A stretch of 64,000 nucleotides of DNA from Lachnospiraceae bacterium (GTDB lineage Bacteria > Bacillota > Clostridia > Lachnospirales > Lachnospiraceae): the NCBI GenBank assembly GCA_022845895.1, contig AP025573.1, forward strand, positions 1,708,501-1,772,500. The letters run 5' to 3'. The notes beneath the pieces were generated by a model. It had not been told where the DNA came from. It made no database searches and was given only the letters and a program-made list of their open reading frames with translations. Shown here in pieces: positions 1-24,432 of this stretch. Position numbers and translations under genes: made by a program. Within the stretch, counting starts at the first letter, position 1; each line of letters begins with the position of its first letter.

Positions 1-354
1 CCGGAGACGATGGTGATAGTATCCGGAGGACAGGGGCCGGGAGAAGCTATCTCCGAGGCGGAGGCGATGGCGGCATATCTTATCGGCTGCGGCATTAAGA
101 GAAGCAGAATCCTTCTGGAAGATCAATCAAAGTCGACAGAGGAGAACCTTACATTCTCCGCGCGATATCTGCCTGATAAGAACGTGAAGGTGGGAATCGT
201 ATCAAATAATTTTCACATGTACCGGGCCTGCTTGTATGCCAGAAGGATTGGCTATAAGGATGTGTGCCGTATACCGGCGGGGTGCAGCCCGCTGCTCTTC
301 GTCAATTATATGGTCAGGGAGTTTTTCGCAGTGTGCAGATTATGGCTGCCTTAG
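1..354 (+). CDS. DUF218 (YdcF/SanA-like) protein, 5' end outside window
   Basis: The reading frame is open from base 1, so this is the C-terminal part of a longer gene. The visible part has the DUF218 pattern: an SGGQGPGE segment near the left edge, then ISEAEAM, a LEDQS..TEENL segment and an SNNFHMYRA segment. The end is hydrophobic (VNYMVREFFAVCRLWL), as in membrane-anchored members of the family. DUF218 proteins have been linked to cell-envelope metabolism, but the reaction of this one cannot be told from sequence. The family call is firm; the function is unknown. Confidence 0.85.
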   Translation, partial: PETMVIVSGGQGPGEAISEAEAMAAYLIGCGIKRSRILLEDQSKSTEENLTFSARYLPDKNVKVGIVSNNFHMYRACLYARRIGYKDVCRIPAGCSPLLFVNYMVREFFAVCRLWLP

Positions 355-426
355 CAGGTATGGAAGGCCGATAAAAGTATTTATTGTACTTTTGCAGTTC
401 AATTCTACATAATCTTTTGATTTAAG

Positions 427-476
427 AATAGTAATATGCTATATTATAAGGGATAGCATATTGCTATTTTTTTCTA
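427..476 (+). terminator. AT-rich hairpin with T run after the DUF218 gene
   Basis: The arms AATAG/AATATGCTAT (427-442, one unpaired base) and ATAGCATATT/CTATT (453-468) form a long AT-rich stem followed by a T run. It can end the DUF218 transcript. The same stretch overlaps a possible promoter for the next gene (TTGATT 417-422, 17 bp, TATATT 440-445), so the palindrome could also act as an operator. Which role applies is not clear. Confidence 0.5.
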
Positions 477-515
477 TTTTCCTTTTACGAAAAAGTGTGG
501 ACAGGGAGGCCAGAA

Positions 516-1943: not shown

Positions 1944-1953
1944 GAAGTCGTAA

Positions 1954-7846: not shown

Positions 7847-9252
7847 CAGTCGCCCTCCCTGCCTGCCAGCCGCAGCATCGCGCCGGCATAGATTTTAGCG
7901 GATAAGATGAGATCGTCTATCGAGATATATTCATCGGGACAGTGGGCCAGTTCCTCCTTGCCGGGGAACACCGGACCGAAGGCGACGGAATTGGGGATGC
8001 TTCTCGCGTAAGTGCCTCCCCCGACCGCGAGGGGGACTGAGCCGTCCGGACAGTAGCTGTGGTAGACGGATAACAGCGTCTGGACAATACGGCTGTCCTT
8101 TTCCTTATACAAAGGTTCGCTGTTCAAGTCGATGTGCATCGTAAGTCCTGCATCGGCCACGGCGCCTGCGAGAAGCTTTTGAATCTGCACGCCGGAACAG
8201 GTGACCGGATAGCGGATATTCAGCTTCAGGCTCGCATGCTGTGTATCCATATTCAGAAGGCCGGCATTCAGCACGAGCTTTCCGGAAGGCTCGTCGCAGA
8301 TATCGCCGAATAAGCCTGAACCATCGGTTTCAGCGCCGATGTGTGAACGATAGAATCTTATAAAACTGCTCTGGAAGGAATCACCTTCCATAAAGGGTTC
8401 CAGAAGCAGCATCATGTTCGACACAGCGTTCACCCCGTTCTCCGGCGTACTTGCGTGAGCGGTCTGCCCGGTGGTACGGACCTTGACGACAGGTCCGCCG
8501 GCAGAGATATGGGTGCCGGGGATAAGCTGGGCCCTCATTTTAAGTCCCTGTACGACAGAGCTGCTAGGCTCTGGAACGACGAGTTCGGCGTGGCATTCAT
8601 CCGGCACCATATTCGCCCTGCGGCCCCCGGTCAGGTTCCGTATATGGGGTTTATCTTCCTCTACGGCTCCTTCCTTATCCAAGGTGGCAAACAGGATTCC
8701 CTTCTCTGCGTATATGACCGGGAATTCGGCGTCCGGAGAGAAGCCGGTACAGGGAATCTCTTCCAGCTCCTTATAGTAGTCCATGCATGCCCAGTCGTTT
8801 TCCTCATCTGTGCCGAAGATAATCCGTATCCTTCTGGAAAGAGGAAGCCTGCTGTCGGCAACCGCCTTCAGGGCAAAGATGGAAGCGATGGCAGGACCTT
8901 TGTCATCTACCGTACCGCGTCCATAGATCTTACCTTCCTCCATGATACCGCCAAAGGGCGGGTGTTCCCATCCATCTCCCGCGGGGACGACATCCAGATG
9001 TACGAGGATGCCGCACAGTTCTTCGCCACTGCCGATTTCAGCCCATCCGGCATAACCTCCGCAGTTTTTGGTGCGCATTCCAAGGGAGCGGCAGAGTGCC
9101 AGCGTCTCATCAAGGCACTGCCCGATAGAAAGCCCGAAAGGCATGTGCGGCCGGGGAGTATCCTTGATGCTTGGAATGCGGACGAGATTCCGGGTATTGC
9201 GGATAATGTCTTCCCGGTATCCATCAATCAATGTATCTAAGACAGTGTCCAT
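7846..9252 (-). CDS. M20-family dipeptidase (PepV/Sapep-like)
   Basis: About 468 residues. The zinc-site segments are VHLDVVPAGDGW, GRGTVDDKGP and FGTDEENDW, the pattern of the PepV/Sapep dipeptidase branch, with the long lid domain that explains its size relative to the neighbouring M20 protein. ATG 9252 is preferred over ATG 9255 because it lies six bases from an AAAGGGA site. The downstream M20 gene overlaps its stop, so the two are coupled. Activity on dipeptides, carnosine-like peptides or N-carbamoyl amino acids is possible. Confidence 0.88.
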   Translation of the reverse strand: MDTVLDTLIDGYREDIIRNTRNLVRIPSIKDTPRPHMPFGLSIGQCLDETLALCRSLGMRTKNCGGYAGWAEIGSGEELCGILVHLDVVPAGDGWEHPPFGGIMEEGKIYGRGTVDDKGPAIASIFALKAVADSRLPLSRRIRIIFGTDEENDWACMDYYKELEEIPCTGFSPDAEFPVIYAEKGILFATLDKEGAVEEDKPHIRNLTGGRRANMVPDECHAELVVPEPSSSVVQGLKMRAQLIPGTHISAGGPVVKVRTTGQTAHASTPENGVNAVSNMMLLLEPFMEGDSFQSSFIRFYRSHIGAETDGSGLFGDICDEPSGKLVLNAGLLNMDTQHASLKLNIRYPVTCSGVQIQKLLAGAVADAGLTMHIDLNSEPLYKEKDSRIVQTLLSVYHSYCPDGSVPLAVGGGTYARSIPNSVAFGPVFPGKEELAHCPDEYISIDDLILSAKIYAGAMLRLAGREGD

Positions 9253-9273
9253 CATAATCCCTTTCTATGTATA

Positions 9274-10359
9274 TCAGTTCAACTTGGTTACAGGGATATA
9301 GCCGTCCTTATATCCAAAGTAGTCATATGCCTTCTGGAACACAGATACAGAGTCTCCTTCCAGCCATTTCGGGTTGCACGGCACACCCACGAAGGCCACT
9401 TCCATGCCGGGTTCCAAATCAGCATTCGTCAGCGGCGTTCCGTCGGACTGAAAGACGCAGAGTGCATCGGGTGTGACGCAGCGTACCTTGCCGCCCTGAT
9501 CAAAGGCAAGTATATTTTCATTTTCTATCATGATTTTTATGCTTTTTCCGGCATATGTTCCCGTACCTTCAATAATCTCATAACCCCAGTCGTGGCTGTT
9601 CTCTGTCTCCATACGAAGTTCCGACAGCGTCCCTTCGATAATCTCGATTCCTCCGGTGGCTCTGGCAATGCATTCGACAGGGCGCTCGCCTGCGGCAATT
9701 CCTCTGCGCACGGCTTCCCCGATGGAGCGGGCCAGCTCATAAGAACCTGCCACAAGCGCTTTTTTAGCGGTTGCGCCGTCCATGATATAGTTGGCGACTC
9801 CTGCGGATCCTCCGAACACGTTGACGATGGGGCGGCCGATCAGCTCGCAGTCGCTGCTGTCCTCATAATAGAGCACGGCACTTAAGTTCTCCTCATTCGC
9901 CATCGCGAAAGGGGCAGAACGTACGTTGTGGATCTCCGGCATGATCATGAACGATTCCGGAACCGCACGCCCTACGCCGTCGGCATTGATGACTTTGATT
10001 CCCGTATAACATGCCGTGTATATAGGGGGCATGAAATTACCTCCGCCCACCTCGAAGGCAGCGACATAGTCAATCTTCTTATTGGTTACGGCTTCCAGTC
10101 TTTTCAGCGCGTGGACACAGGCGATACAGTCAAAGCCGCGTTCCTTTGTGGCTGCGGGGGATCCCATGCCTGATATGATGGCTACATATGCGTCATCCGG
10201 AACTTCTTCAAGCTCCGCAAATTCTACCTCCTTGGTGAGTGCAAGGATATCTTCCAGCAGACGGTAGCTCGTCTTGACATCTCCGCCGCCACCGCTGCCG
10301 AGGATAATTGCCCCGCGTGTCATGTCATACAGCTGCTCTTTGTTCATTTTTACTGACAT
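9274..10359 (-). CDS. DUF917 family protein (S-methylthiohydantoin desulfurase-type)
   Basis: A 361-residue protein with the DUF917 glycine-rich start (AIILGSGGGGDV, about residues 16-27), SGMGSPAATKER and FEVGGGNFM. The family often sits in hyu-type hydantoin gene clusters and includes S-methylthiohydantoin desulfurase. ATG 10359 has AAGGAGGA eight bases upstream. It is third in the minus operon, between the NCS1 permease and the dipeptidase. The actual substrate is unknown, but its presence supports a hydantoin-like ring compound. Confidence 0.85.
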   Translation of the reverse strand: MSVKMNKEQLYDMTRGAIILGSGGGGDVKTSYRLLEDILALTKEVEFAELEEVPDDAYVAIISGMGSPAATKERGFDCIACVHALKRLEAVTNKKIDYVAAFEVGGGNFMPPIYTACYTGIKVINADGVGRAVPESFMIMPEIHNVRSAPFAMANEENLSAVLYYEDSSDCELIGRPIVNVFGGSAGVANYIMDGATAKKALVAGSYELARSIGEAVRRGIAAGERPVECIARATGGIEIIEGTLSELRMETENSHDWGYEIIEGTGTYAGKSIKIMIENENILAFDQGGKVRCVTPDALCVFQSDGTPLTNADLEPGMEVAFVGVPCNPKWLEGDSVSVFQKAYDYFGYKDGYIPVTKLN

Positions 10360-10386
10360 ATCAAGTCCTCCTTAACATACGGATGA

Positions 10387-11724
10387 TTAACAATCTTTTC
10401 CGTGATTTTTATTGAATAGTTTTACACAGGCTATCTGCATGATGAAGGCTGCAACAAAGGAGTCGATTGCAGGAATCGTGGTAATCTGGAACAACGCGAA
10501 TCCCGGAGAGGTCTGTGTTGTCATAAATCCTACGGCGGCTGCGATGAGATAGGCAGCCATACTTTCAAGGCGCACCTTTTTAAGCTGATTTAGACGGTCA
10601 AAGCTGTAGAACTTCCTGCACAGATAGAAGTCGGCCAGATAACATCCTCCGAGGGGAGGCGTGAAGATTCCGAGTACGGAGAAAAACGGGATCATCATAT
10701 TGGACAGGCCGATGACGGCGAATATGGTGCCGGAGACGCCGGTAAATATTGCCAGCTTATACTTCGGCATCTTCTCAAACACGACGGAGAGTCCGAGGGA
10801 ACCGCTGTATACGTTGTTGTCATTGGAGGTCCACTGCGCCAGAACCAGGACGACCATGGCAAGCACGCCCCACCCGAGACCTATCATGACGGTGACGATG
10901 TTGGCATCCCCCACTGCTTTGGCACAGGCCGCGGCAATTACGATCGTAATGCCGTAACCGATGACAAGGCCGATGACCATGGCTTTCACGGTGTCTTTGA
11001 AATTCTTCGCATACCGGAGGATATCCGGGCTCCCTACCGCACCTGCCGCAAAGGAGCCGATGACAAGCGAGATGCCGGTACCAAGCGACATTGGATTTGT
11101 GATAAAGGATGTGTTCAATTCACTGTACGTATGCCCCTTGAGTACCATGACAAGCGATGCTATCATAAGGATGGCGATGGCCGGTATAGCTATCCAGCTC
11201 AGCTTTTCTATAGATTTGAAGCCAAAGATTGCGGAAGTTGTCATCAGAAGTCCGCCAATCACTATGATTACTTTTACACCCGCTGGAGACAGGGCATTGC
11301 CGGTCATGAGCCGGAACATCTGTCCAATCGTGTCACCGAACAGGCCGGCCTGTACGCCGAACCAGCCCCAGGCGCATCCGGCATAGAGGAGGCCGACGAG
11401 AGCGGCGCCCTTAAGCCCGAACGTAAACTTTCCAATCATGCTCGTCGACAGACCTGTGTACATGGCCGGTTCCGCACAGAGACAGGCCATGGCGGCCAGA
11501 ATGAGGGCGCCTGCCAGAACGGCGATGATAGATTCATTCAGTGTCAGGCCGGTGGCAAGGCTTCCGCCGAGCGTAAAGGCCGATATGCTGATGGCACAGC
11601 CGATATACACGACGGCGCTGCTGGCCCATCCGCGCTTCTTATCTTCAGGGACCGGTTTGCGCGCAAAATCGTCGTCACCGCCTGCGTATGCTTTCTCTTC
11701 AAGAAATTTCCATAATGATGCCAT
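10387..11724 (-). CDS. NCS1-family nucleobase/hydantoin-type permease (CodB-like)
   Basis: A 445-residue integral membrane protein with about 12 hydrophobic segments and an NCS1-like N-terminus (RGWASSAVVYIGCAISISAF). The family imports cytosine, purines, allantoin and hydantoins with Na+ or H+. ATG 11724 has AAGGAGGA upstream. It lies in one operon with the racemase and DUF917 genes, which makes a cyclic ureide or nucleobase the likely cargo (inference). Exact specificity cannot be read. Confidence 0.9.
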   Translation of the reverse strand: MASLWKFLEEKAYAGGDDDFARKPVPEDKKRGWASSAVVYIGCAISISAFTLGGSLATGLTLNESIIAVLAGALILAAMACLCAEPAMYTGLSTSMIGKFTFGLKGAALVGLLYAGCAWGWFGVQAGLFGDTIGQMFRLMTGNALSPAGVKVIIVIGGLLMTTSAIFGFKSIEKLSWIAIPAIAILMIASLVMVLKGHTYSELNTSFITNPMSLGTGISLVIGSFAAGAVGSPDILRYAKNFKDTVKAMVIGLVIGYGITIVIAAACAKAVGDANIVTVMIGLGWGVLAMVVLVLAQWTSNDNNVYSGSLGLSVVFEKMPKYKLAIFTGVSGTIFAVIGLSNMMIPFFSVLGIFTPPLGGCYLADFYLCRKFYSFDRLNQLKKVRLESMAAYLIAAAVGFMTTQTSPGFALFQITTIPAIDSFVAAFIMQIACVKLFNKNHGKDC

Positions 11725-11769
11725 ATCATTTCCTCCTTATTCATTTGTATTCTCATTCCTGCTTCGTTC

Positions 11770-12510
11770 CTATCTGATTCGTTGATTCATCTCATTATGG
11801 ACGAGATGGGCCGTACTGTTGTTCAGCTGGAGCGTGACAAAGGTTTCCAGCATCTTAAGTCCCGTTGACAGCGGCTCCACCACCGTAATGCCGCATCCGC
11901 GCAGGGCAAGCTCCGCCCTCAAGTCATCTGCGATATAGGCCATGGCGGTACATCCCAGTATGAGACAGTCGCAGCCGTGTACACGGCCCGATTGTTCGGC
12001 AAAGTCCGCCAGCCTATCGAGCAGCGCTTCCCGGTCATGCAGTTCGAGTACATCGAGGTTGGTAAAATCCTGACAGACGATGCTGTCTCTGCATTCAGGA
12101 TTGTTCTCGATTACTTTGGCAAGCAGCAGGGTGCCTGCGGGATCCTCCCTGCCCGGAATTATGACAGAAAAGTGTCTGCCGCATCCGAGAGCCGCCATCA
12201 TGGAAGGCCGGAAACCGCCGAATACAGGTACATGCACCAGTTCCCGCACCATATCCACCGCAGGATCGGCAAAGCAGTTGATAAAGATGCCGTCTGCCCC
12301 TTCTGCTTCCGCAAGCATAGCTTCCTCTGCAATCTCAGGGCTGTTATATCCGACACGTGTAATCGTGTTCAGAGCCTCGAACCCCCTTCTGAGGAAGCCT
12401 ACCGATACCTCGGTGCCGGGATTCAAGACACGCAGCGCATGGGGGATGCCATTGTTCGCCTTGCGTGTGGCAGGAGTATCTGCCACAGGAATAATCAATT
12501 TTAATTTCAT
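11770..12510 (-). CDS. Asp/Glu/hydantoin racemase family protein
   Basis: About 246 residues. Two catalytic cysteines are visible in the expected places, NCFADP (about residue 80) and LGCTAM (about residue 187), with PVADTP at the N-terminus. The family includes hydantoin and allantoin racemases. A double ATG at 12513/12510 sits beside AGGAGGTGA; ATG 12510 has the better spacing. It is first in the minus operon, just downstream of a Crp/Fnr-type site. The likely role is to interconvert enantiomers of a ring compound before hydrolysis (inference). Confidence 0.9.
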   Translation of the reverse strand: MKLKLIIPVADTPATRKANNGIPHALRVLNPGTEVSVGFLRRGFEALNTITRVGYNSPEIAEEAMLAEAEGADGIFINCFADPAVDMVRELVHVPVFGGFRPSMMAALGCGRHFSVIIPGREDPAGTLLLAKVIENNPECRDSIVCQDFTNLDVLELHDREALLDRLADFAEQSGRVHGCDCLILGCTAMAYIADDLRAELALRGCGITVVEPLSTGLKMLETFVTLQLNNSTAHLVHNEMNQRIR

Positions 12511-12571
12511 CATTTCACCTCCTAAATTATTATTATCTGTTTATTTGCCCAAGCTTTGATATATTGTCAGT

Positions 12572-14320: not shown

Positions 14321-14380
14321 TGTCAATATGAATCAATTAATACAATTGACAGAAAATTGAACGAGAAAGGAGATGAATAT

Positions 14381-14833
14381 ATGGCAGAGATTGACCGGTA
14401 TTCCTTTATCTGCGGTATGATTGCGGCTTTCGGCGAATGCGTGGCCCAGGAGGTGAAAAAGACGGCATTCAGTCCTCCATTCCCCCCTTCTGAATTGGAA
14501 CAGCTGGAGGAAGAAGCCGAGAGAATCATGAGAGAACAGGGCCTGTCTTTCTATCTGGAAAAAAATCCGGATATTCCGGAGGATAAAAGGGTGTACTGGT
14601 GGGTCCTGTACAAATTCCCAGAAGTGCTTGGCCAATACGAGGCATTAAGAGAGAAGGGGTATAACCCCGCATGGGAATTTGATCGGTTCAAAGACTTGTT
14701 AAGCTATGGGACAGCGTGGGGGCCGGGGCATGAAGCCGTAGTCTCTCAAGTAAGAGAAGAGGCAAGCCCCATGGATCCGGTGACAAGAATCTTGTTCCCG
14801 GACCATGGATGGCCGGTTGAAAGAAAGGTATAA
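14381..14833 (+). CDS. Unknown 150-residue protein, first gene of BMC operon
   Basis: I do not recognise a domain. ATG 14381 has AAAGGAG seven bases upstream. The protein is soluble, acidic in its middle (ELEQLEEEAERIM, about residues 43-55) and aromatic-rich (VYWWVLYKFPEV, about 70-81), with a WGPGHEAV stretch near residue 115 and no signal peptide or membrane helix. Its position before the first shell gene and the 12-base gap suggest a dedicated role in the compartment pathway: small enzyme subunit, chaperone or cargo adaptor (inference only). Confidence 0.75.
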   Translation: MAEIDRYSFICGMIAAFGECVAQEVKKTAFSPPFPPSELEQLEEEAERIMREQGLSFYLEKNPDIPEDKRVYWWVLYKFPEVLGQYEALREKGYNPAWEFDRFKDLLSYGTAWGPGHEAVVSQVREEASPMDPVTRILFPDHGWPVERKV

Positions 14834-14845
14834 GGAGGATAAGGA

Positions 14846-15124
14846 ATGAATTCATATGGTTTTATCGAGACGAAAGGATTTGTAGGCGGCGTAGAGGCTG
14901 CAGACGCGATGGTAAAAGCCGCCAATGTAGAAGTGGCAGGAAAGATGGAGATTGGCGGAGGTTACATGACAGTAGCCATCAAAGGTGATGTAGGTGCGGT
15001 GAAGGCTGCCGTCGATGCCGGCGCCGAAGCGGCCCAGAGGGTCGGGGAGCTTGTCAGCGCCCATGTGATTCCGAGGCCGAACGAAGGCCTGCTGAATCTG
15101 TTCCTCGATAAAGAGGAGGCGTAA
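14846..15124 (+). CDS. BMC-H shell protein (PduA/EutM-like), copy 1
   Basis: A 92-residue single BMC domain that forms hexagonal shell tiles. It carries the family core ([38 protein letters not shown]). The pore loop reads IGGGY at residues 36-40, where PduA has a serine at the constriction; glycine there should widen the pore and remove a hydroxyl. The short tail LLNLFLDKEEA is acidic. ATG 14846 follows AAGGAGGATAAGG. It shares about two thirds of its residues with the second BMC-H gene. Confidence 0.97.
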   Translation: MNSYGFIETKGFVGGVEAADAMVKAANVEVAGKMEIGGGYMTVAIKGDVGAVKAAVDAGAEAAQRVGELVSAHVIPRPNEGLLNLFLDKEEA

Positions 15125-15164
15125 GCAGCCTGATAATATGGCAGCAGGAAAGGAGTTGTAACGA

Positions 15165-16610
15165 TTGAAGAAATTTTATACAGCAGCAGATGTCAATATT
15201 TGTGCCTCCAAGGGAGAGACGGTCATCTATATCAATCCGGGTGATGTGGTAACTTCCGTTGCGAGGGAGGAAGCCGGGAAGAAAGGGATACGGTTTGAAG
15301 CAGGAAGGGCAATTGAGCAGCCTGCAATGCCTCAGCCGGAGGCCGCCGCGCCATCTCCGGTGCCGGCCGCGATACCTGCATACAAGCCGGCTGCGCCGGC
15401 AGTACCGGCCGCCGCCATCTATCCGCAGGTGAAGGCCCTGCCCTATAAAGGACTTTTGAGCGAAGCGGAGGTCGACCGGTGGCGGGAAGACTTCCCAATC
15501 CTGAAATCCGTGGCCCATCTCGGAAACTGCTCACAGAGCGCACAGTCGAAGCAGGTGCTTGCCGGCATACAGAGATATCTGGACAACTGGGGAAGCGTAG
15601 GCATGGACTGGGATTCCTGGATGGAGGAGATAGAGCTTGCGAAGGCAGAGTTCGCAAGACTCATTGGGGCCGAACCAGACGAGATTGCCATCGCGTCATC
15701 CGTGTCCGACCTTGTGAGCTCTATTGCCAATTCCCTGGACTATACAGGCAAGCGGAAAAAAGTGGTCGTGACAGATATGGAATTTCCGACCGTGGATTAC
15801 ATATGGCTTGCGAACCAGCGTCATGGGGCCAAGGTAGATTTTGTATCCGTAAATGAGAACCATGAGATCGATATCAGCGAATACGAACGGTACATAGACG
15901 AGGATACGCTTTTGACATCCATAACGCAAGTGTACTATCTGAATGGCTTTAAGCAGGATGTCAGGGCAATCGCAGACATCGCACACAGGAAGGGCTCCCT
16001 CGTGCTTGTCGATGCCTACCAGTGCCTCGGTACGGAGCCGCTGGATGTAAAGGCCATGAATATCGATATTCTGGTGTCCGGATGCCTGAAATATCTGTTC
16101 GGCATCCCCGGCGTGGCATTCATGTATGTGAACAGGAACCTCATACAGGAGCTGAAGCCGTCTGTGACCGGTTGGTTCGGCCAGACGAATCCCTTCCTGT
16201 TCCAGACGAGATACCTGGACTGGGCCAATAAGACGAGCCGGTTCGACACGGGAACCCCGCCTGTGCTCACTGCATATGCGGCCAGAGCCGGGCTTGAGAT
16301 TATCAACCAGGTCACGGTTCCTAAGATTAAGGACCGGATCGACATGCTGAGCGCACATGCCCTGAACGGCGTGGCAGCGAGAGGACTGAAGACGATCAGC
16401 CCCTTTGACGTGAGCAAAAAGGGGGGCACGACGGCCATCGTCTGTGGTGACAAAGTAGACTCCCACACGATGGAAAAGCTGCTGAGAGACAGAAATGTCA
16501 TCGGTTCAGGCAGGGGCGATGTTATCAGAATCGCACCTCATTTCTATACGAAGCCTGAGGAGATAGACTATGCTCTGGACTGTATCAGGGACATTCTGGA
16601 AGGAAGGTAG
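15165..16610 (+). CDS. Class V PLP-dependent enzyme with EutQ-like BMC targeting domain
   Basis: A 481-residue cargo enzyme starting with TTG 15165 behind GGAAAGGAG. Residues 1-45 look like the N-terminal segment of EutQ-type BMC proteins (FYTAADV, INPGDVVTSVA). Residues about 53-92 are a Pro/Ala linker. The rest is a fold-type I class V aminotransferase/kynureninase-like enzyme: Asp283 and Gln286 (DAYQ) hold the cofactor, Lys309 (GCLKYL) should bind PLP, followed by GWFGQ and DTGTPP. Transamination, beta-lyase or desulfurase-type chemistry are all possible. With a 2-oxoacid oxidoreductase downstream, making a 2-oxoacid from an amino acid is the best guess (inference). Confidence 0.88.
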   Translation: MKKFYTAADVNICASKGETVIYINPGDVVTSVAREEAGKKGIRFEAGRAIEQPAMPQPEAAAPSPVPAAIPAYKPAAPAVPAAAIYPQVKALPYKGLLSEAEVDRWREDFPILKSVAHLGNCSQSAQSKQVLAGIQRYLDNWGSVGMDWDSWMEEIELAKAEFARLIGAEPDEIAIASSVSDLVSSIANSLDYTGKRKKVVVTDMEFPTVDYIWLANQRHGAKVDFVSVNENHEIDISEYERYIDEDTLLTSITQVYYLNGFKQDVRAIADIAHRKGSLVLVDAYQCLGTEPLDVKAMNIDILVSGCLKYLFGIPGVAFMYVNRNLIQELKPSVTGWFGQTNPFLFQTRYLDWANKTSRFDTGTPPVLTAYAARAGLEIINQVTVPKIKDRIDMLSAHALNGVAARGLKTISPFDVSKKGGTTAIVCGDKVDSHTMEKLLRDRNVIGSGRGDVIRIAPHFYTKPEEIDYALDCIRDILEGR

Positions 16611-16619
16611 GTGCAGTAC

Positions 16620-16883
16620 ATGTATATCTGCAAGGTACAGGGGAAATGTGTTTCCACGATTAAGAATGAGCAGCTTAAGGGCTGCAGCCTGATAACGATG
16701 CAGCGTCTGAACAAGTCGGGAGGTCCGGCAGGAGAAATCCTCGTGGCCGTCGATACGATTGGCTGCAGCGTGGGAGAGACCGTACTTGTGACGAGAGGGT
16801 CAGGTACACGTGCCGTACTGGGCGCTGACAGTCCGGCAGATATGGTAGTCGTGGGAATCGTAGACACTTATGATTGGTTATGA
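16620..16883 (+). CDS. BMC-P vertex protein (EutN/CcmL family)
   Basis: An 87-residue pentameric vertex protein that closes shell corners. It has the family pattern: an MYICKVQG start, CVSTIKNEQLKG, a central VAVDTIGCSVGETVLV and GIVDTYDW at the end. The open frame begins at GTG 16611, but ATG 16620 matches the conserved N-terminus and is chosen. It is the only vertex protein in the window. Confidence 0.95.
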   Translation: MYICKVQGKCVSTIKNEQLKGCSLITMQRLNKSGGPAGEILVAVDTIGCSVGETVLVTRGSGTRAVLGADSPADMVVVGIVDTYDWL

Positions 16884-16902: not shown

Positions 16903-17166
16903 ATGAAGTCAAAAGGATTTATTGAGACAAGAGGTCTGGTGGCAGCAATTGAAGCAGCGGATGCGATGGTAAAAGCAGCAAATGTAACCCTGACCGGCAG
17001 GAAGATGATAGGTGGCGGGCTCGTGACCGTCATCATCGAAGGGGACGTGGGAGCTGTGAAGGCGGCAGTGGACGCGGGAGCGGCGGCAGCCCAGAAGGTC
17101 GGAGAGCTGATCAGCGTTCATGTAATCGCAAGACCGGACGCCGAGATTGATACATTCCTGCAGTAA
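16903..17166 (+). CDS. BMC-H shell protein, copy 2
   Basis: An 87-residue single BMC domain. The pore loop is IGGGL at residues 36-40. Core segments are [32 protein letters not shown] and HVIARP. ATG 16903 has TAGGAGGA upstream. It differs from copy 1 mainly in charge (EGDV for KGDV) and in the tail, so mixed or alternative facets are possible. It lies between the vertex and tandem-domain shell genes. Confidence 0.97.
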
Positions 17167-17178
17167 GGCGGGTGTGTT

Positions 17179-17817
17179 ATGGAAGAAGCGAAGAAAGAGA
17201 ATCTAAATCTCAGGACCTTTATCATTGTTGACAATATGCAGCCCCAATATGCGGCTGTCACTGGAACCGTGTCCAAAGGCGACATTCCGCTGGCAGGGAT
17301 GAGCGAACTATATATCGAGCTGGCACCGGGCAGCGGGGTGTATGACCTGTTGAACGCCGCACTCAAATCGTCCAATGCCAAGCCTGCATTCCAAATCGTG
17401 GAAAGAGAATACGGGGAGATAGAACTGCACTCCTTTTCCCCGGAGGATGTCAAGCAGGCCGGCGAAGCAGTGCTTAACGCCTGCGGACTTACGGTTCTGG
17501 ACCGTATGAAGCCGGCCATCGTGTCGGAACAGATAATCTCCAATACGGACGCCTATCAGGCACAGCTGATCAACAGGGATTCCCGACATGGATCCATACT
17601 CGTACCGGGGGAAACGCTGTTCATCATGGAGGTGGAGCCAGCGGCGTACATATCGATAGCTGTAAATGAGGCGGAGAAGAACGCAGATATAAAAGTCGTC
17701 ACGTTCGACCCAGTCGGACGGTTCGGAAGGATGTACATATCCGGATCAGAGAGTGAAGTCAGAAGTGCACGGGATGCGGCAATTGCAGCAATTACGGGTG
17801 TGGAAGGAAGAACATAG
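17179..17817 (+). CDS. BMC-T tandem-domain shell protein, circularly permuted (CsoS1D-type)
   Basis: A 212-residue protein with two permuted BMC domains. Domain 1 covers about residues 10-105 (IIVDNMQPQYAAVTGTVSKG ... GEIELHSFS) and domain 2 about 112-208 (INRDSRHGSILVPGETLF, EPAAYISIAVNEAEK, VGRFGRMYISG). This layout resembles CsoS1D and the tandem proteins of Haliangium-type shells, which form trimers with a large, sometimes gated pore. It probably admits the larger substrates or cofactors. There is only one BMC-T gene, so the shell set is minimal: H, H, P, T. Confidence 0.92.
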   Translation: MEEAKKENLNLRTFIIVDNMQPQYAAVTGTVSKGDIPLAGMSELYIELAPGSGVYDLLNAALKSSNAKPAFQIVEREYGEIELHSFSPEDVKQAGEAVLNACGLTVLDRMKPAIVSEQIISNTDAYQAQLINRDSRHGSILVPGETLFIMEVEPAAYISIAVNEAEKNADIKVVTFDPVGRFGRMYISGSESEVRSARDAAIAAITGVEGRT

Positions 17818-17820
17818 CTT

Positions 17821-19365
17821 ATGGGAATTGATATATTTGCAGATTATATCCGGAAGTTAGAGCAGAAGAAGGAATCTGTCACGCCATCTCAGTCCTATGC
17901 TGTGGGGCAGGGTCGTCCAGAAGCTTTAGGAAGCGGGGAGACGCTGGCTGTCCTTAAGGAAATCAGCCGGAAGCTGTCCGATATGCAGACATTCCGGGAA
18001 CCTCCGTCAGATGCCAAGGCGGATCTGGCCATCGTGGGCGGGATGCTGGTGCTGCCTGGCCACGGCATCTTTAAGGCCGATATCTTCATTAAGGACGGGA
18101 AGGTGCAGTCGTTTGGCACAGGAGAGGGAATCCATGCGAAGAAGACAGTGGACGCATCGGGAACGTATGTCTGTCCTGGGCTGATGGATCCTCATGTACA
18201 TTTGGGCCTGTTTGCACCTATGGAGACAGATATGGCATCAGAGACGAAGGCGGCCGTCATGGGAGGGATTACGACGACAGGGGTATTTTTCGGAGGAGCA
18301 GACTCTCACTTTTCCACGTTTCCGGAGATAGAAGAGCAGGCAGAGAAGTATTCCTACACGGATATCGTCCCACATCTCGTCATCGGTAATGAAGAACAGA
18401 TGCGGGAGATACCTGATTATGCCCGCTACCTTGGCGTGACATCCTTCAAGGTGTACATGAATGGGATACCGGGCATGATTCCGAGCGTAGATGACGGATT
18501 CATCCTGGATGTCATGGCACAGATGAAGCGCATCGGCAGGCAGTGTATCCTCTGCTGTCATACTGAGAATACCCATATCGTATCGAGAGCGCTTCGGGAC
18601 GCAAAAGAAAAATATGGTGATGGCGCAGACGTCAGTGACTGGATGGAAAGCCATCCTGCCATGGCAGAGGAGGAGGCGGTGATGCGGATCTCGTATCTCG
18701 CCGGGAAGAGCAGGATTCCGGTGTACCTCGTACATATCGGTACAAAGGAAGGGATTGAGAAGCTGCGCCAGATCAAGCCGTTCAACAAATACGTACATAT
18801 CGAAACGACGAGCCCTTATCTGTCTGTCACGAGCGAGCAGTTCGACGGCCCTCTCTACAAGATGGAGCCGCCTCTTCGGAACCCGGAAGACAAGAACGCG
18901 CTCTGGGAGGCGCTTGATGACGATGTCATAGACACGATAGGGACAGATAATGTATGTGAAAACATAGAAGAGAAGCAGCCGGAGCGTTCTATCTGGGACG
19001 TGGTTCCGGGATATTCCGTATTGGAGACGCATCTGGCGTCTGTTCTGACGGAAGGCGTGGTGAAAAGAGGTATCAGCATAGAAAAAGTAATTACCCATAT
19101 GACGAGGCGTCCGGCAGAGGCATTTGGCATCTACCCACAGAAAGGGACGCTGCTACCGGGAAGCGATGCGGATCTCGTATTGATTGATATGAACGAGACA
19201 AGGGAAGTACATGCGGAAGATATGCATTCCCGCTCGGATTTTTCCATCTTCGAGGGCAGAAGCCTTACCGGATGGCCGGTGATGACGGTCAAGGGAGGCA
19301 GCATCGTGATGGAGAACGGAATGCTCGTGGCAGACGCGCCGTCGGGACATATGGTGAAGCGATAG
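17821..19365 (+). CDS. Hydantoinase/dihydropyrimidinase-like amidohydrolase with encapsulation peptide
   Basis: A 514-residue cyclic amidohydrolase. Metal ligands visible: His125 and His127 (DPHVHLG), Lys210 (SFKVYMNG, expected carbamylated), His247 (CCHTEN), His305 (LVHIGTKEG) and Asp376 (GTDN). The beta-sandwich parts flank the barrel. It opens 5'-6' ring amides such as hydantoins, dihydropyrimidines, dihydroorotate or allantoin. Residues 1-18 form an amphipathic helix (DIFADYIRKLEQKKE) and 41-55 a second one, joined by a flexible linker. This extension is absent from ordinary members and looks like a BMC encapsulation peptide. It starts 3 bases after the BMC-T stop. Confidence 0.9.
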   Translation: MGIDIFADYIRKLEQKKESVTPSQSYAVGQGRPEALGSGETLAVLKEISRKLSDMQTFREPPSDAKADLAIVGGMLVLPGHGIFKADIFIKDGKVQSFGTGEGIHAKKTVDASGTYVCPGLMDPHVHLGLFAPMETDMASETKAAVMGGITTTGVFFGGADSHFSTFPEIEEQAEKYSYTDIVPHLVIGNEEQMREIPDYARYLGVTSFKVYMNGIPGMIPSVDDGFILDVMAQMKRIGRQCILCCHTENTHIVSRALRDAKEKYGDGADVSDWMESHPAMAEEEAVMRISYLAGKSRIPVYLVHIGTKEGIEKLRQIKPFNKYVHIETTSPYLSVTSEQFDGPLYKMEPPLRNPEDKNALWEALDDDVIDTIGTDNVCENIEEKQPERSIWDVVPGYSVLETHLASVLTEGVVKRGISIEKVITHMTRRPAEAFGIYPQKGTLLPGSDADLVLIDMNETREVHAEDMHSRSDFSIFEGRSLTGWPVMTVKGGSIVMENGMLVADAPSGHMVKR

Positions 19366-19378
19366 GAGGGAACATAAC

Positions 19379-19921
19379 TTGAAAGAAATCAGAATACATG
19401 GCAGAGGCGGTATGGGCGCGGTGAAAGCGGCAGAAGCGCTCGTGTACGCAGCGGTGATGGATGGGAAATATGGCAATTCGATTCCGTTCTTCGGATTTGA
19501 ACGCCAGGGAGCACCGGTAACAGCCTTTGTGAGAATCAGCGAAGACCCCATCCGGCCTAAGAACAGGGTATACCATCCAGATGTCATCATCGTGCTGGAT
19601 CCGACGATCATGAAGGCGGTCAACGTGTTTGAAGGTGTCAAAGAAGGCGGCATCCTTGTGCTCAACACGGCACATGAACCGGAAGATCTGGATATTCCCA
19701 AGAACATTGCTTCTGTCACCGTGGCAGATGCCACGAAGATAGCTCTGGATATGATTGGAAGACCGATTACCAATACCGTCATGCTCGGCGCATTCTGCAA
19801 GGCGACAGGGCTCGTATCTGTCGACGAGGTGGCCGGGAAGGTGGAAGAACTGTGGGGCACCAAAAATAAAGAAGCGCTGTACAAAGGTTATGAATCTGCC
19901 GTGACGGCGGCTGTGCGATAA
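19379..19921 (+). CDS. 2-Oxoacid:ferredoxin oxidoreductase, gamma subunit
   Basis: A 180-residue gamma chain starting with TTG 19379, nine bases after AGGAGGG. The N-terminus IRIHGRGGMGAVKAAEAL and the GFERQGAPVTAFVRI segment are diagnostic of the PorG/VorC/KorC domain. It belongs to a four-gene set (gamma, delta, alpha, beta) that oxidises a 2-oxoacid with CoA to acyl-CoA, CO2 and reduced ferredoxin. Pyruvate, 2-oxoisovalerate or another oxoacid could be the substrate. Confidence 0.95.
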   Translation: MKEIRIHGRGGMGAVKAAEALVYAAVMDGKYGNSIPFFGFERQGAPVTAFVRISEDPIRPKNRVYHPDVIIVLDPTIMKAVNVFEGVKEGGILVLNTAHEPEDLDIPKNIASVTVADATKIALDMIGRPITNTVMLGAFCKATGLVSVDEVAGKVEELWGTKNKEALYKGYESAVTAAVR

Positions 19922-19938
19922 AGGAGGTGGCAGAAAAG

Positions 19939-20205
19939 ATGGAATTTAAGAGTGAATATATCGTGCCGGTTGGAGCGGATGGCATCCATGTCCTGAACAC
20001 AGGGGACTGGAGGACGCAGCGTCCGGTGCTAGATCAGGAGACGTGCATCGCCTGCGGCACATGCCTACTGTACTGCCCGGTGAATTCGATAAGGAAAGCG
20101 GACGGAACATTTACAATCTGTTACGACTACTGTAAGGGCTGCGGCATATGCGCCCACGAATGCCCGAAGGATGCAATCACGATGATACCGGAGGAGGGGA
20201 AATAG
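19939..20205 (+). CDS. 2-Oxoacid:ferredoxin oxidoreductase, delta subunit (2x[4Fe-4S])
   Basis: An 88-residue ferredoxin-like chain. Two clusters are visible: CIACGTCLLYCP and CKGCGICAHECP. ATG 19939 is eight bases from AAGGAGGTGG; an upstream in-frame GTG at 19927 lies inside that ribosome site and is rejected. It relays electrons from the catalytic chains to ferredoxin. Its stop touches the start of the alpha gene, so translation is coupled. Confidence 0.95.
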   Translation: MEFKSEYIVPVGADGIHVLNTGDWRTQRPVLDQETCIACGTCLLYCPVNSIRKADGTFTICYDYCKGCGICAHECPKDAITMIPEEGK

Positions 20206-21387
20206 ATGCAGAGATTAGATGTATTAAACGGCAATATGGCGGCGGCTGTCGGAGCTGCCCTTGCAAAACCGGACGTCATCGCAGCTTATCCGATTACGCC
20301 GCAGACGCCGGTCGTAGAGTATCTCACACAGTTTGCCGCAGACGGGAAGATAGATGCGGCCATGAGCGAAGTGGAATCTGAGCTTTCAGCAATGAGTGTT
20401 GTAACAGGGGCCTCTCTTGCCGGATCAAGAACCTTTACAGCGACGGCATCCCAGGGACTATCGCTCATGTACGAACCTTATTTCAGGGCATCGACGCTGC
20501 GCCTCCCCATCGTGATGGCCGTCGTCAACCGGGAGATGATATCTCCCCAGAGCGTCTGGGGCGGGCAGCAGGATTCCATGAGCGTAAGAGATGCGGGGTG
20601 GCTGCAGATATATGCGGAAGACAACCAGGAGATTCTGGATCTCGTAGTGCAGGCGTTCAAAATTGCGGAAGATAAGCGGGTTCTGCTGCCAATCAATATC
20701 TGTTACGACGGATTTTACCTGTCACATATGACAGAGAGGGTTATGGTACCAGAGCAGGAAAAGGTGGATACCTTTCTTGGAACTTACCATCCGGAGCATA
20801 TTATTCTGGATCCGGAACGGCCTATGGCGGTGGACCCGCTTACAAACGGCGCCCTTTTGATGGAATATAGGTACAAACATCTGAAGGCCCAGCAGGCGGC
20901 GCTGGAGGTCATCGATGAAGTGGACAGAGATTTTGGAGAGCTGTTCGGCCGCAGCTACGGAGGCGCCATCGAGGAATATCGGATGGAAGACGCGGAATAT
21001 GCCATCATCACGACAGGGTCCATGTCGGGCGCCGCAAAAGATATGGTGGATGCAAAACGGGAAGAAGGCGTGAAAGCGGGCCTGATCCGTATGCGTATGG
21101 TCCGCCCGTTCCCGAAGGAGCGGATCAGAAAGGCGCTGGCAGAGGTGAAAGCCTTCGGCGTGGTAGATAAGAACGTGTCGTTTGGCTGTGACACGGGAAT
21201 CGTATATCAGGAAGTAAGAGCTGCCATGTACGGCGGAAACAGCGTACCGTCCGTGCCGGTTGTCGGCGGCCTTGGCGGTGAGGATATCTCACTTCAGATG
21301 ATGGGAGACGTCATCGACACAATCGTCCATGCCGCGCAGGAACAGACAGACAGCGAGACGGTATGGCTTATGGTGGAAGAAGGGTAG
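20206..21387 (+). CDS. 2-Oxoacid:ferredoxin oxidoreductase, alpha subunit
   Basis: A 393-residue alpha chain with the pyrimidine domain of thiamine diphosphate enzymes (YPITPQTPVVEYL, SEVESELSAMSV, TATASQGLSLMYE). The region around residues 105-120 (VNREMISPQSVWGGQQDSM) matches PorA/VorB proteins. The C-terminal domain carries GLIRMRMVRPFP. GGAGGGG precedes ATG 20206. The chain pairs with the beta subunit encoded 10 bases downstream. Confidence 0.95.
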   Translation: MQRLDVLNGNMAAAVGAALAKPDVIAAYPITPQTPVVEYLTQFAADGKIDAAMSEVESELSAMSVVTGASLAGSRTFTATASQGLSLMYEPYFRASTLRLPIVMAVVNREMISPQSVWGGQQDSMSVRDAGWLQIYAEDNQEILDLVVQAFKIAEDKRVLLPINICYDGFYLSHMTERVMVPEQEKVDTFLGTYHPEHIILDPERPMAVDPLTNGALLMEYRYKHLKAQQAALEVIDEVDRDFGELFGRSYGGAIEEYRMEDAEYAIITTGSMSGAAKDMVDAKREEGVKAGLIRMRMVRPFPKERIRKALAEVKAFGVVDKNVSFGCDTGIVYQEVRAAMYGGNSVPSVPVVGGLGGEDISLQMMGDVIDTIVHAAQEQTDSETVWLMVEEG

Positions 21388-21397
21388 GTGGAAGAGG

Positions 21398-22303
21398 ATG
21401 AATATTGTAGATAAATTAGCGGCAAAAGAAGATATGGTCTCTCCCGGCATATCAGCCTGTGTGGGATGTAACGTTGAGCTGACGCTGCGTACCTGTATGA
21501 AAGTGCTCGGTCCGAACACCATCTATGCGGTACCTCCCGGATGTATGGGAGGAGTAGGGGTCGTTGGATGGGATACGGAGTCCGGATCTAAGATTCCGGT
21601 GTTCTTCCCGCTTCTTGACAATGTGGCGTCTATGCTGGCAGGCATCAAGATGCACTATGAAAAACAGGGAAGAGATGTGAACGTGGTGGCATTTGCAGGG
21701 GACGGGGCGTCGACAGACGCAGGCATGCAATGCCTGTCAGGCGCTGCGGAACGCGGGGATAAATTGATCTATATCTGTTACGACAACGAAGGATATATGA
21801 ATACGGGATACCAGAGGAGCAGCGCCACGACGAAATATTCATGGACGACGACGACGCCGGTGAGCAAGGAAGGGCGCGGCGGCAAGAAACAGCACAAGAA
21901 GGACTTCCCCATGGTCATGGCCATGCATGATATCCCTTATATGGCGACCTGCTCTCCGGCCTACATTCCGGACATGGTGCGTAAGCTCGAGAAGGCGATA
22001 GAAGCGTCCAGGACGGGGCTTGCTTATCTCCACGTGTTCAACCCGTGCCTGACCGGATGGGGGATAAAGCCGGATACGAGCATCGAAGTGTCAAGGCTTG
22101 CGGTAGAGAGCAATTTCTTCCCGCTCTATGAAGTGGAACATGGTTCCTTTACGATTAACAAGACATTCAAGGAGCCAAAACCGGTGAAGGAATATCTGGG
22201 ACGCATGAAAAAGTTCAAACACCTGAATGAGGAAGAAGCGGCAGAAATCCAGGAACTGGTCGACTACAAGTGGAACCGGCTCACGAAGCTTGCCGGCCTA
22301 TAA
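21398..22303 (+). CDS. 2-Oxoacid:ferredoxin oxidoreductase, beta subunit
   Basis: A 301-residue beta chain. The thiamine diphosphate motif GDGASTDAG...YDNEGYMNTG is complete. Cysteines in CVGC near residue 20, CMGG and a later Cys are the expected [4Fe-4S] ligands. ATG 21398 follows GGAAGAGG; a longer frame from 21329 overlaps the alpha gene and is not used. Together the four chains form a complete enzyme. Confidence 0.95.
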   Translation: MNIVDKLAAKEDMVSPGISACVGCNVELTLRTCMKVLGPNTIYAVPPGCMGGVGVVGWDTESGSKIPVFFPLLDNVASMLAGIKMHYEKQGRDVNVVAFAGDGASTDAGMQCLSGAAERGDKLIYICYDNEGYMNTGYQRSSATTKYSWTTTTPVSKEGRGGKKQHKKDFPMVMAMHDIPYMATCSPAYIPDMVRKLEKAIEASRTGLAYLHVFNPCLTGWGIKPDTSIEVSRLAVESNFFPLYEVEHGSFTINKTFKEPKPVKEYLGRMKKFKHLNEEEAAEIQELVDYKWNRLTKLAGL

Positions 22304-22322
22304 CAGGAGAAGGAGGGAATAC

Positions 22323-23777
22323 ATGGTACATAATCTAGAAGCCTTATTCAATCCTGAGAACATCGCGGTCATCGGCGCCAGCAATAATCCGCTGAAAGCC
22401 GGATATACGGTCATCTACAACCTGAATCAGATTGGATACCCCAAGCACGTATTTCCCGTTACGATGTCGGCAGATGAGATTCTGGGGCACAAGTGCTACA
22501 AGAAGCTCTCAGAGATTGAAGAGACGGTAGAACTGGCCGTACTAGGCACACCGGCGAAGATGATATATGACATAATGGCCGACCTTGCAGTGCGAATGGA
22601 GGAAAAGCGGGATATCAAGGTAATCGTCTGCATCGCCGCGGATTATGGCGAGACGAAGACGGAGGAAGGGATACGCAGACAGGACTGCCTTATTGAGACT
22701 GCAGCAAAGTACGGGATCCGTGTGGTCGGGCCGAACTGCATCGGAATCATCGACAACATCAACCGTGTGGATACGACTTTTGTTGAGACGCTCATACCGA
22801 AGGAGATGAGGGGACAGAAAGGAGGCATCAGCTTTATCTCCCAGAGCGGCGCCATGGCGGCTTCCATCCTGATGATGGGCGCATCCGGGCCGGCCCCGAT
22901 CTCCATGAACAAGTTCATCTCCATAGGAAATATGGCGGATGTAGACTGCATCGACCTGCTGGAGTATTTTGAGCAGGATGAGGACACGAAGGTCATCGGC
23001 ATGTACCTGGAAGGATATCCGGACGGCAGGAGGCTGATCGACACGCTGGCAAGAATCGCCCGAAAGAAACCGGTGGTAATCCTGAAGGTCGGCCGCAGCA
23101 GCATCGGGGCAGAGGCTGCCAACTCCCACACAGGCTCCCTTGCCGGGGCTGATTCCGTATACGACGCGGCATTTTGCCAGTTTGGAATCATAAGGGTATA
23201 CACGATAGAAGATATGATGGATACGCTTCAGGCTTTTGACGCGATGAAGATACCGGACGGCAGGAACTGCTTTTTGCTGACACAGGCCGGAGGCCCGGGA
23301 ATCTATTGTACAGACGCATTTGTAGAAGAGAAGGTCCTTGAGTTTCCGCTCGTATCAGAAGAGACGAAGAATAAGCTTGCAGCCGCTCTGCCGCCTATGG
23401 CAAATGTCTGTTCTCCGGAAGGATATGCAGATATCACGGCCGCAGCCACTGTGGAACATCATGTAGAAAGCCTCAGAATTGTCATGGATGACGATGCGGT
23501 AGACAGCGTCATATTCGTGACCGTCGTGCCGACGTTCCTGCCAAGAAGGGAGCTGGCCGAAGGGCTGCTTAGCCTGCTTGCAGAAGAAGGATACAAGGAG
23601 AAAAAGCCTGTATGCATCTGCATCATGGCGGGGAATTACGTATGGGAATGCCGGGAGATACTGGAGCGGGGAGGGATACATACCTTTGATACCCCTGCCC
23701 ACTGCGTGAAGGCGATGAGCCACATGACGGCCTACGGCCAATTCTTAAAACGTCAGGAGGAAGAGGCGGATGAGTAG
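22323..23777 (+). CDS. ADP-forming acyl-CoA synthetase, alpha subunit
   Basis: A 484-residue alpha chain of the acetyl-CoA synthetase (ADP-forming) family. It has the CoA-binding Rossmann start (IAVIGASNNPLKAGY, about residues 14-28), GPNCIGI (about 136-142), FISQSGAMAAS (about 171-181) and the phosphohistidine site SHTGSLAGAD with His269. Start ATG 22323 follows AGAAGGAGGG; the frame is open further upstream into the beta gene of the oxidoreductase. It converts acyl-CoA, ADP and Pi to acid, CoA and ATP with the next gene's product. This conserves energy where classical BMCs use PduL and acetate kinase. Confidence 0.93.
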   Translation: MVHNLEALFNPENIAVIGASNNPLKAGYTVIYNLNQIGYPKHVFPVTMSADEILGHKCYKKLSEIEETVELAVLGTPAKMIYDIMADLAVRMEEKRDIKVIVCIAADYGETKTEEGIRRQDCLIETAAKYGIRVVGPNCIGIIDNINRVDTTFVETLIPKEMRGQKGGISFISQSGAMAASILMMGASGPAPISMNKFISIGNMADVDCIDLLEYFEQDEDTKVIGMYLEGYPDGRRLIDTLARIARKKPVVILKVGRSSIGAEAANSHTGSLAGADSVYDAAFCQFGIIRVYTIEDMMDTLQAFDAMKIPDGRNCFLLTQAGGPGIYCTDAFVEEKVLEFPLVSEETKNKLAAALPPMANVCSPEGYADITAAATVEHHVESLRIVMDDDAVDSVIFVTVVPTFLPRRELAEGLLSLLAEEGYKEKKPVCICIMAGNYVWECREILERGGIHTFDTPAHCVKAMSHMTAYGQFLKRQEEEADE

Positions 23778-24432
23778 ATTTTTAAATGAACTGGATGCAA
23801 AGAACCTTCTTTCTGAATACGGTGTGCCAATGGCCAGGAGCAGGGTTGCCGCGTCGAAGGAGGAGGCTGTACAGATAGCGGGAGAGATGGAATGCCCGGT
23901 TGTCATGAAGATACTGTCCTGCGATATCCAGCATAAGACAGAGGCAGGATGCGTATTTCTCGGTGTAAGAGAAAAGGATGCAGGTACGACATATGAAAAA
24001 ATCATGGAGAACGCGGCAGCTTATAAGGCTGACGCCGCCATTGACGGGGTGCTCATGCAGGAGATGGCGGCAGAGGGGCTGGAGGTTATCGTCGGGATGA
24101 AGAAAGACCCGCAGTTCGGACCTGTGCTCATGGCAGGCAGCGGCGGCATCTACGTAGAGGTGTTTCAGGACATCGCACTCAGGCTGCTTCCCATAGATGA
24201 GAAGGAAGCAGAACGGATGATAAAGGAGACGAAGCTGTACCAGATTATCAGAGGAGCCAGAGGGACGGAATATGACATGGACGCTCTGGTCGGCTGCCTC
24301 CTGAAAGTATCGGAACTCGCAGTAGATCAACCATCTATCGAGGAAATCGACATTAACCCGCTGTTCTTGTACGAGAAGGGCAAAGGAGCGAAAGGGGTAG
24401 ATGCTTTGATCAAGATTACCGAGGAGAAATAA
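23770..24432 (+). CDS. ADP-forming acyl-CoA synthetase, beta subunit (ATP-grasp)
   Basis: A 220-residue ATP-grasp chain. Visible are VVMKI (nucleotide-binding Lys), DIQHKTEAGCV, MLM..EGLEVIVGMKKDPQFGPVLMAGSGG and the metal-binding EIDINPL near the end. The length is typical of separate beta chains. It overlaps the alpha gene by eight bases, ensuring equal synthesis. Separate alpha and beta genes resemble archaeal enzymes and some Clostridia rather than the fused bacterial form. Confidence 0.93.
   Translation: MSRFLNELDAKNLLSEYGVPMARSRVAASKEEAVQIAGEMECPVVMKILSCDIQHKTEAGCVFLGVREKDAGTTYEKIMENAAAYKADAAIDGVLMQEMAAEGLEVIVGMKKDPQFGPVLMAGSGGIYVEVFQDIALRLLPIDEKEAERMIKETKLYQIIRGARGTEYDMDALVGCLLKVSELAVDQPSIEEIDINPLFLYEKGKGAKGVDALIKITEEK

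Follow-up and report, generated by a model that had tools for sequence, protein, structure and literature searches.

In a microcompartment (BMC) locus of a Lachnospiraceae bacterium we have identified a class V PLP enzyme whose N-terminal segment is, judged by sequence comparison, homologous to residues about 2-41 of EutQ. No other enzyme is encoded within the block of shell genes. The locus lies in a stretch of 64,000 nucleotides (contig AP025573.1, positions 1,708,501 to 1,772,500), referred to below as the window. Our analysis makes it probable that this N-terminal mini-domain docks to shell proteins and so keeps the PLP enzyme at the shell's inner face; the PLP enzyme would be the compartment's signature enzyme.

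The gene (ORF 15165-16610, plus strand) encodes 481 residues, begins with a TTG start codon preceded by AAGGAG at 15150-15155, and has a BMC-H gene before it and a EutN/CcmL (BMC-P) gene behind it (Table 1). The three parts of its product are conserved to very different degrees: in an alignment of 11 rows, two of which are identical, the mean pair identity of the orthologues is 64.7% for residues 1-46, 20.4% for residues 47-92 and 79.1% for residues 93-481. In four within-group pairs the domain has dN/dS ratios of 0.10-0.14, the linker 0.15-0.60 and the catalytic part 0.01-0.05 (dS was saturated in a fifth, wider pair), which points to purifying selection on the N-terminal domain. Residues D9, V10, G17, T30, A33 and A37 of this domain are invariant.

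Table 1. Features of the microcompartment locus in the window, and ACT-domain proteins of other loci that carry a related segment
Feature	Position	Strand	Basis
158-residue protein, first gene of the cluster in the Dorea group	14357..14833	+	no family match over cut-off
BMC-H shell protein	14846..15124	+	PF00936 E 1e-28
EutQ-N-like mini-domain, residues 1-46 of the PLP enzyme	15165..15302	+	PLP-only HMM, fold prediction, identity, dN/dS
Flexible linker, residues 47-92 of the PLP enzyme	15303..15440	+	low identity, 26/46 Pro+Ala, low pLDDT
Class V PLP catalytic domain, residues 93-481 (K309, D283, R455, family-specific C122)	15441..16610	+	PF00266, kynureninase alignment, folds, invariant columns
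BMC-P (EutN/CcmL) vertex protein	16611..16883	+	PF03319 E 3.9e-24
BMC-H shell protein	16903..17166	+	PF00936 E 1.2e-28
BMC-T shell protein, CcmP-like	17179..17817	+	PF00936 E 7.7e-7; CcmP model E 9.5e-67, below cut-off
Hydantoinase/dihydropyrimidinase-like enzyme	17821..19365	+	TIGR02033 E 2.6e-75, below cut-off
Four-subunit 2-oxoacid:ferredoxin oxidoreductase (gamma, delta, alpha, beta)	19379..22303	+	POR PF01558; 4Fe-4S and TPP domains; PadG/PorA below cut-off
ADP-forming acyl-CoA synthetase, alpha and beta	22227..24432	+	TIGR02717 E 4e-124, below cut-off; PF13549 E 5.4e-73
ACT-domain carriers (small proteins)	L216:7677-8156; L226:5240-5719; L227:7703-8182; L231:3491-3946; L233:3649-4203

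The relationship with EutQ was assessed with an HMM built from the N-termini of 10 PLP enzymes and no EutQ sequence, run against 14,500 six-frame ORFs from 114 loci. EutQ was intentionally over-represented in this set, through 30 loci fetched via PF06249. Of the 34 ORFs matched by this PLP-only HMM at E<=1, 11 are PLP-enzyme ORFs (its training proteins, with one of them twice over), and the other 23 are all EutQ proteins matched at their N-terminus (top E 1.3e-8). The original prediction of a EutQ-like N-terminus on a class V PLP enzyme is therefore confirmed, as the model finds only EutQ N-termini besides its training set. Matches were obtained in 22 of the 30 PF06249 loci, the eight missed having short ORFs (<=179 residues) or weak cupin matches, while E. 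coli EutQ is marginal (E 0.047); the best control scores were E 0.66 for reversed and E 1.7 for shuffled ORFs. Profile-profile comparison of the PLP segment with a EutQ-like set gave a probability of 98.4, for two sets that are not independent, being linked via a joint alignment (A1). The EutQ-like side consists of 30 N-terminal carriers of 190-280 residues chosen through this alignment and Pfam-checked only in part, at least one of which (L170) lacks any Pfam match at E<=0.01. Support for the homology thus comes from the whole family of sequences and not from single pairs. The cupin domain of EutQ gave no match in the PLP enzyme (PF06249, E<=1), and the cargo-peptide-binding helices H3/H4 are absent, residues 47-92 being unconserved and having no predicted helix.

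According to AlphaFold, residues 1-46 are predicted to form an autonomous beta/alpha mini-domain and not a peptide, and residues 48-83 a disordered tether. In the model of the full enzyme (13-row alignment) the block pLDDT values are 85-92 at residues 1-40, 74 at 41-50 and below 50 at 48-83; residues 1-50 modelled alone reach a mean pLDDT of 89.1 and a pTM of 0.68, with helices predicted at 7-15 and 31-40 among short strands. Among PDB sequences the mini-domain has no convincing match (the best, at E 0.19, is unrelated); Foldseek gave nothing at E<=0.001, and the best Z with VIA-align was 5.1 (eIF5B/IF2 chains), a value in a range that is said to indicate no more than a common arrangement. This lack of a match to a known fold is no evidence of a new one. 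An internal duplication of the mini-domain, suggested by halves that look similar by eye, was rejected (profile comparison probability 0.1).

The linker had been described as a Pro/Ala segment joined to a complete catalytic domain and as the mark of a detachable targeting module. The linker itself and the complete catalytic domain are well founded, and a separately folded unit on a disordered tether is what the models predict. The Pro/Ala character does not hold in general: Pro and Ala make up 26 of the 46 residues 47-92 in the window and 23-29 of 46 in the sequences of its genus, but only 3-9 of 46 in the own-numbered residues 47-92 of seven orthologues from outside the genus, and by this comparison it is a lineage feature of the Dorea group. 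Structure prediction of the N-terminus, proposed at the same time, yields a compact two-helix unit followed by a flexible region; the model also has short strands, whereas PMC12487888 describes only helices for EutQ.

The enzyme is rare, and wherever it was found the domain and the shell genes accompany it. It is present in 3 of 61 related genomes searched, the window's own included. A scan of GTDB contigs, from which the best 80 of 293 confirmed relatives were kept as loci, yielded eight that are 64-92% identical (best segment) and have the domain, and the same eight are the only ones in which a profile search finds a BMC-H gene; domain and BMC-H gene are both missing from the other 72, whose identity is 35% at most. 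The domain census described below added one more orthologue, L204 (58% identical), which likewise has the domain and shell genes. Therefore all 11 distinct orthologues found (the window, Dorea D27, L003, L006-L012 and L204) combine the two; L002 and L005 are, by sequence, the same genome (Dorea D27), and L003 is a second genome of the window's genus. The order BMC-H, PLP enzyme, BMC-P, BMC-H, BMC-T is kept in 10 of the 11, L204 having the last four genes and no first BMC-H within 1.1 kb upstream. The 158-residue protein that opens the cluster has matches only in L002, L003 and L005 among 13 loci compared.

The genes around the block are less constant. A hydantoinase gene follows BMC-T in the window, L002, L003, L005-L009, L012 and L204, and the oxidoreductase is seen in hydantoinase-bearing loci wherever the sequence extends far enough; the L010 contig ends behind BMC-T. 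In L011, by contrast, the 2.9 kb that follow BMC-T contain neither hydantoinase nor 2-oxoacid oxidoreductase but the solute-binding protein and permease of a peptide-type ABC transporter (8036-10653), and genes for an aldehyde ferredoxin oxidoreductase and two peptidases, of families M24 and S9, precede the block (2-4732). An S9 peptidase also flanks the L010 block (L010:3-1847). In L012 (Gudongella) a phosphate acetyl/butyryl transferase and an acetokinase-family gene lie between hydantoinase and oxidoreductase (7032-9053), and no acyl-CoA synthetase was seen near the block. A constant pathway of hydantoinase, oxidoreductase and CoA synthetase was consequently rejected, since none of the three is present in the L011 sequence examined and L012 has no synthetase nearby. 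We therefore rate the pathway proposed below lower, with the odds of docking unchanged, and the comparison favours the hydantoinase as one of several ways to feed the PLP enzyme. As the sole enzyme gene common to all blocks, the PLP enzyme gene is the favoured candidate for the signature enzyme.

Two further features of the neighbourhood were recorded. The hydantoinase has an N-terminal extension (about 65 residues, 17821-18015) that is conserved in seven aligned sequences and consists of two conserved short segments (of DIFxxYIK and LKEISxKL types) with variable linkers, reminiscent of an encapsulation peptide. On the divergent minus strand (window 7846-12513) lie genes for a Sapep/PepV dipeptidase, an S-methyl-thiohydantoin-type protein, an NCS1 permease-like protein and an Asp/Glu/hydantoin racemase family protein; the NCBIfam names of the neighbour genes all fall below the curated cut-offs, except that of the dipeptidase.

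The domain itself is far more widespread than the enzyme. A search with the joint alignment (eight PLP rows and five EutQ rows) gave matches at E<=0.01 in 78 of 398 genomes of the phylum. Around hits at E<=0.001 we collected 80 stretches, 78 from this census and two from Maledivibacter halophilus, and 75 of them include a BMC-H gene. Among their 85 carrier ORFs, Pfam recognised EutQ (29), Flavoprotein (21), PDU_like (6), cobalamin adenosyltransferase (5), ACT (4) and, once each, phosphotransacylase, aldehyde dehydrogenase and Aminotran_5, classes that can overlap, the remaining carriers being without such an assignment. The PDU_like match in L210, the one carrier of this class examined, covers the C-terminal stretch where the domain sits, and PF02817 (E3-binding domain) was matched by one of the 85 (E 6.5e-4). 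In nine flavoprotein carriers examined singly (L194, L197, L200, L205, L210, L214, L223, L237 and L238) the domain is C-terminal.

Individual carriers illustrate this range. Flavoprotein-family proteins of BMC loci with the domain at the C-terminus have about 250-330 residues (L200:7973-8764, L237:7419-8180, L238:7895-8689 and similar ones), and one flavoprotein carrier belongs to the Xau/BUF1 cluster of M. halophilus. An aldehyde dehydrogenase of a BMC locus (L183:6318-8234, a 639-residue ORF) has the EutQ-N-like domain at its N-terminus. The window's own genome contains a second BMC locus, with a protein of at most 245 residues that has the domain at its C-terminus and no Pfam match (L230:8014-8748, C1:2711713-2712447).

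We regard the chances as evenly balanced that the EutQ-N segment is a portable shell-docking domain of about 45 residues, placed N- or C-terminally on at least seven families (EutQ cupin, flavoprotein, cobalamin adenosyltransferase, phosphotransacylase, aldehyde dehydrogenase, PLP enzyme and ACT), which would make it a second class of targeting signal besides encapsulation peptides, older than, or borrowed from, proteins outside compartments. In the five stretches without a BMC-H gene (L216, L226, L227, L231 and L233) the carriers are ACT-domain proteins that begin with the segment; in the genomes concerned, which are 85-98% complete, PF00936 gave no match at E<=0.001 in four cases and a sub-cut-off match only in the fifth. 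Because the ACT carriers are mostly found in genomes without detected BMC genes, the domain seems not to be exclusive to compartments, and its presence in a sequence does not by itself prove a compartment or shell binding. Homologues of the segment outside BMC loci, which the original prediction would have counted against itself, thus exist in a weaker form among ACT proteins, but none occurs within the PLP family, where no case of the domain without shell genes was found among the 11 orthologues.

It might be argued from these ACT proteins, whose segment is related to the EutQ-like set (profile-profile probability 98.7, compared with 91.0 against the PLP segment), that the domain mediates protein-protein interactions in general, such as contacts between enzymes or between enzyme and regulator, and that any enclosure of the PLP enzyme is achieved via other signals; the conserved extension of the hydantoinase, where this enzyme is present, could be such a signal. 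We consider this explanation unlikely. It does not account well for the BMC-H genes in nearly all census stretches, and the ACT proteins are beyond the reach of the PLP-only profile at E<=0.01, which does find 27 other ORFs, including flavoprotein and aldehyde dehydrogenase carriers. Moreover, the corresponding helices of EutQ act on the shell side and not on the cargo-peptide side (PMC12487888).

Work on Salmonella EutQ provides the model for docking. Residues 1-99 suffice for the recruitment of GFP to the organelle, shell and cargo come apart when H1/H2 (9-41) are deleted, and cargo peptides are bound by H3/H4 (62-99) (PMC12487888). By analogy, the H1/H2 equivalent at the N-terminus of the PLP enzyme would dock to the shell proteins of its own cluster. 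The enzyme may thereby be its own adaptor, with a shell-docking domain on a tether and H3/H4 dispensed with, and in the docked state would lie in the lumen, at the inner face of the shell. An alternative location is the outer, cytosolic face, on which the enzyme would be associated with the shell and not enclosed by it. A study of E. coli considers a place on the surface of the shell, or in the cytosol, possible for EutQ and leaves the matter undecided (PMC11334477), but EutQ is reported to be encapsulated in Salmonella (PMC12487888; noted also in PMC11334477), and we think it quite improbable that the PLP enzyme sits outside. Eut assembly may also differ in Gram-positive bacteria (PMC12487888), to which the organism of the window belongs. 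With the EutQ side debated in this way, the earlier statement that the fusion is direct evidence of cargo was too strong. Finally, although the segment is short and the scores of single EutQ proteins are weak, as in E. coli, the resemblance to EutQ is most improbably due to chance or a functionless relic, given the many EutQ matches without any others, the clean reversed and shuffled controls, the low dN/dS, the confident fold prediction and the retention of the domain in every orthologue.

The catalytic domain is a clear member of the class V enzymes (Aminotran_5 PF00266 over residues 127-446, E 8.9e-44, 150.4 bits against a cut-off of 21.5). The best solved sequence match is kynureninase 1qz9 (E 1.5e-26), in whose alignment K309, D283 and R455 have counterparts; K309, the PLP lysine by alignment, is invariant in 13 aligned rows, and we take D283 and R455 to be the aspartate and the carboxylate-binding arginine that go with it. 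The predicted domain matches the folds of SufS and kynureninase, but the scores with the curated models of these two enzymes are far below the cut-offs (123.1 of 475.1 and 89.3 of 246.4 bits, respectively). The NCBIfam models do not assign a reaction, the 25 matches listed (of 39) all scoring well below cut-off. A cysteine, C122, in the motif GNCSQSAQ (residues 120-127, window 15522-15545), presumably in the active-site loop, is kept in nine aligned orthologues and in L204, and is absent from four distant relatives aligned.

The window locus contains BMC-H, BMC-T and BMC-P genes and, among the main ORFs at 7.8-29.5 kb, no member of the aldehyde dehydrogenase family; it therefore has the composition of a BUF locus, defined by all three shell types and no AldDH. 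Its type can be narrowed down through M. halophilus, for which two EUT2B, PDU1D, GRM1A, BUF1 and BUF3 loci are listed (Sutter et al. 2021, PMC8217296), and in which we found the BMC genes in six clusters. One of these (C22) encodes molybdenum-hydroxylase subunit domains, UbiD, a UbiX-type flavoprotein, an isochorismatase and a formiminotransferase, resembling the purine-pathway gene content of BUF1/Xau (PMC6620236, PMC4207490). If C22 is BUF1/Xau, the M. halophilus cluster orthologous to the window is BUF3 and, by elimination, so is the window locus. A Xau/BUF1 identity of the window locus was rejected, the purine gene set being in another M. halophilus cluster; ten ORFs scanned at window 29.6-47.4 kb include no xanthine dehydrogenase. 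In a term search, the main text of PMC8217296 mentioned neither an aminotransferase nor pfam00266.

One branch has genes for peptidases and the uptake of peptides, another has genes for a hydantoinase and a racemase, and both have a ferredoxin-linked oxidoreductase, a pattern suggesting that an amino acid is processed in the compartment. Very tentatively, this amino acid would be the substrate of the PLP enzyme, derived from peptides in some hosts and from hydantoin-like compounds in others, and the product might, with similar reserve, be oxidised by the ferredoxin-linked oxidoreductase for energy.

In the open-licence literature, as far as the accessible parts of it go, we found no description of the PLP fusion or of a portable EutQ-N domain; EutQ homologues in GRM compartments have been noted (PMC12487888). 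A folded docking domain bears on the question of how enzymes without encapsulation peptides reach microcompartments, and the locus would offer a first handle on BUF3. If our reading is correct, a PLP enzyme is the central enzyme in a type of compartment that lacks aldehyde dehydrogenase, swapping of the domain between families would make cargo or shell partners predictable from sequence, and the domain could serve as an engineering tag distinct from encapsulation peptides.

Several known systems invite comparison. With the N-terminal region of EutQ (1-99; H1/H2) the PLP enzyme shares the homologous 45-residue N-terminal segment, two helices followed by a flexible region, and a BMC locus; it differs in having no cupin and no helices where H3/H4 stand, the linker leading instead to a PLP enzyme. 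Canonical encapsulation peptides are likewise terminal extensions on flexible linkers (PMC8217296), but they are amphipathic helices of 15-20 residues, whereas the PLP enzyme has a 46-residue predicted folded beta/alpha domain. The claim that a PLP enzyme lies outside the classical BMC types is valid for EUT, PDU and carboxysomes, but an aminotransferase-type signature enzyme is not new as such, given the precedent of RMM (PMC4207490). An aminotransferase is the proposed signature enzyme of RMM/Aut compartments, likened to the window enzyme by description only (PMC4207490, PMC6620236), and the RMM/Aut locus has an aldehyde dehydrogenase and another pathway.

Kynureninase- and SufS-type class V enzymes have the fold type and the aligned PLP lysine, aspartate and arginine in common with the window enzyme. 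In SufS the catalytic Cys is located shortly before the arginine equivalent to R455, a position at which the window enzyme has no Cys. Another class V PLP enzyme that belongs to a protein compartment is the cysteine desulfurase cargo of family 2A encapsulins (NF041166 E 2.8e-19, below cut-off), but the encapsulin shell is unrelated to the BMC shell of the window, and the encapsulin cargo has an unrelated, disordered targeting segment.
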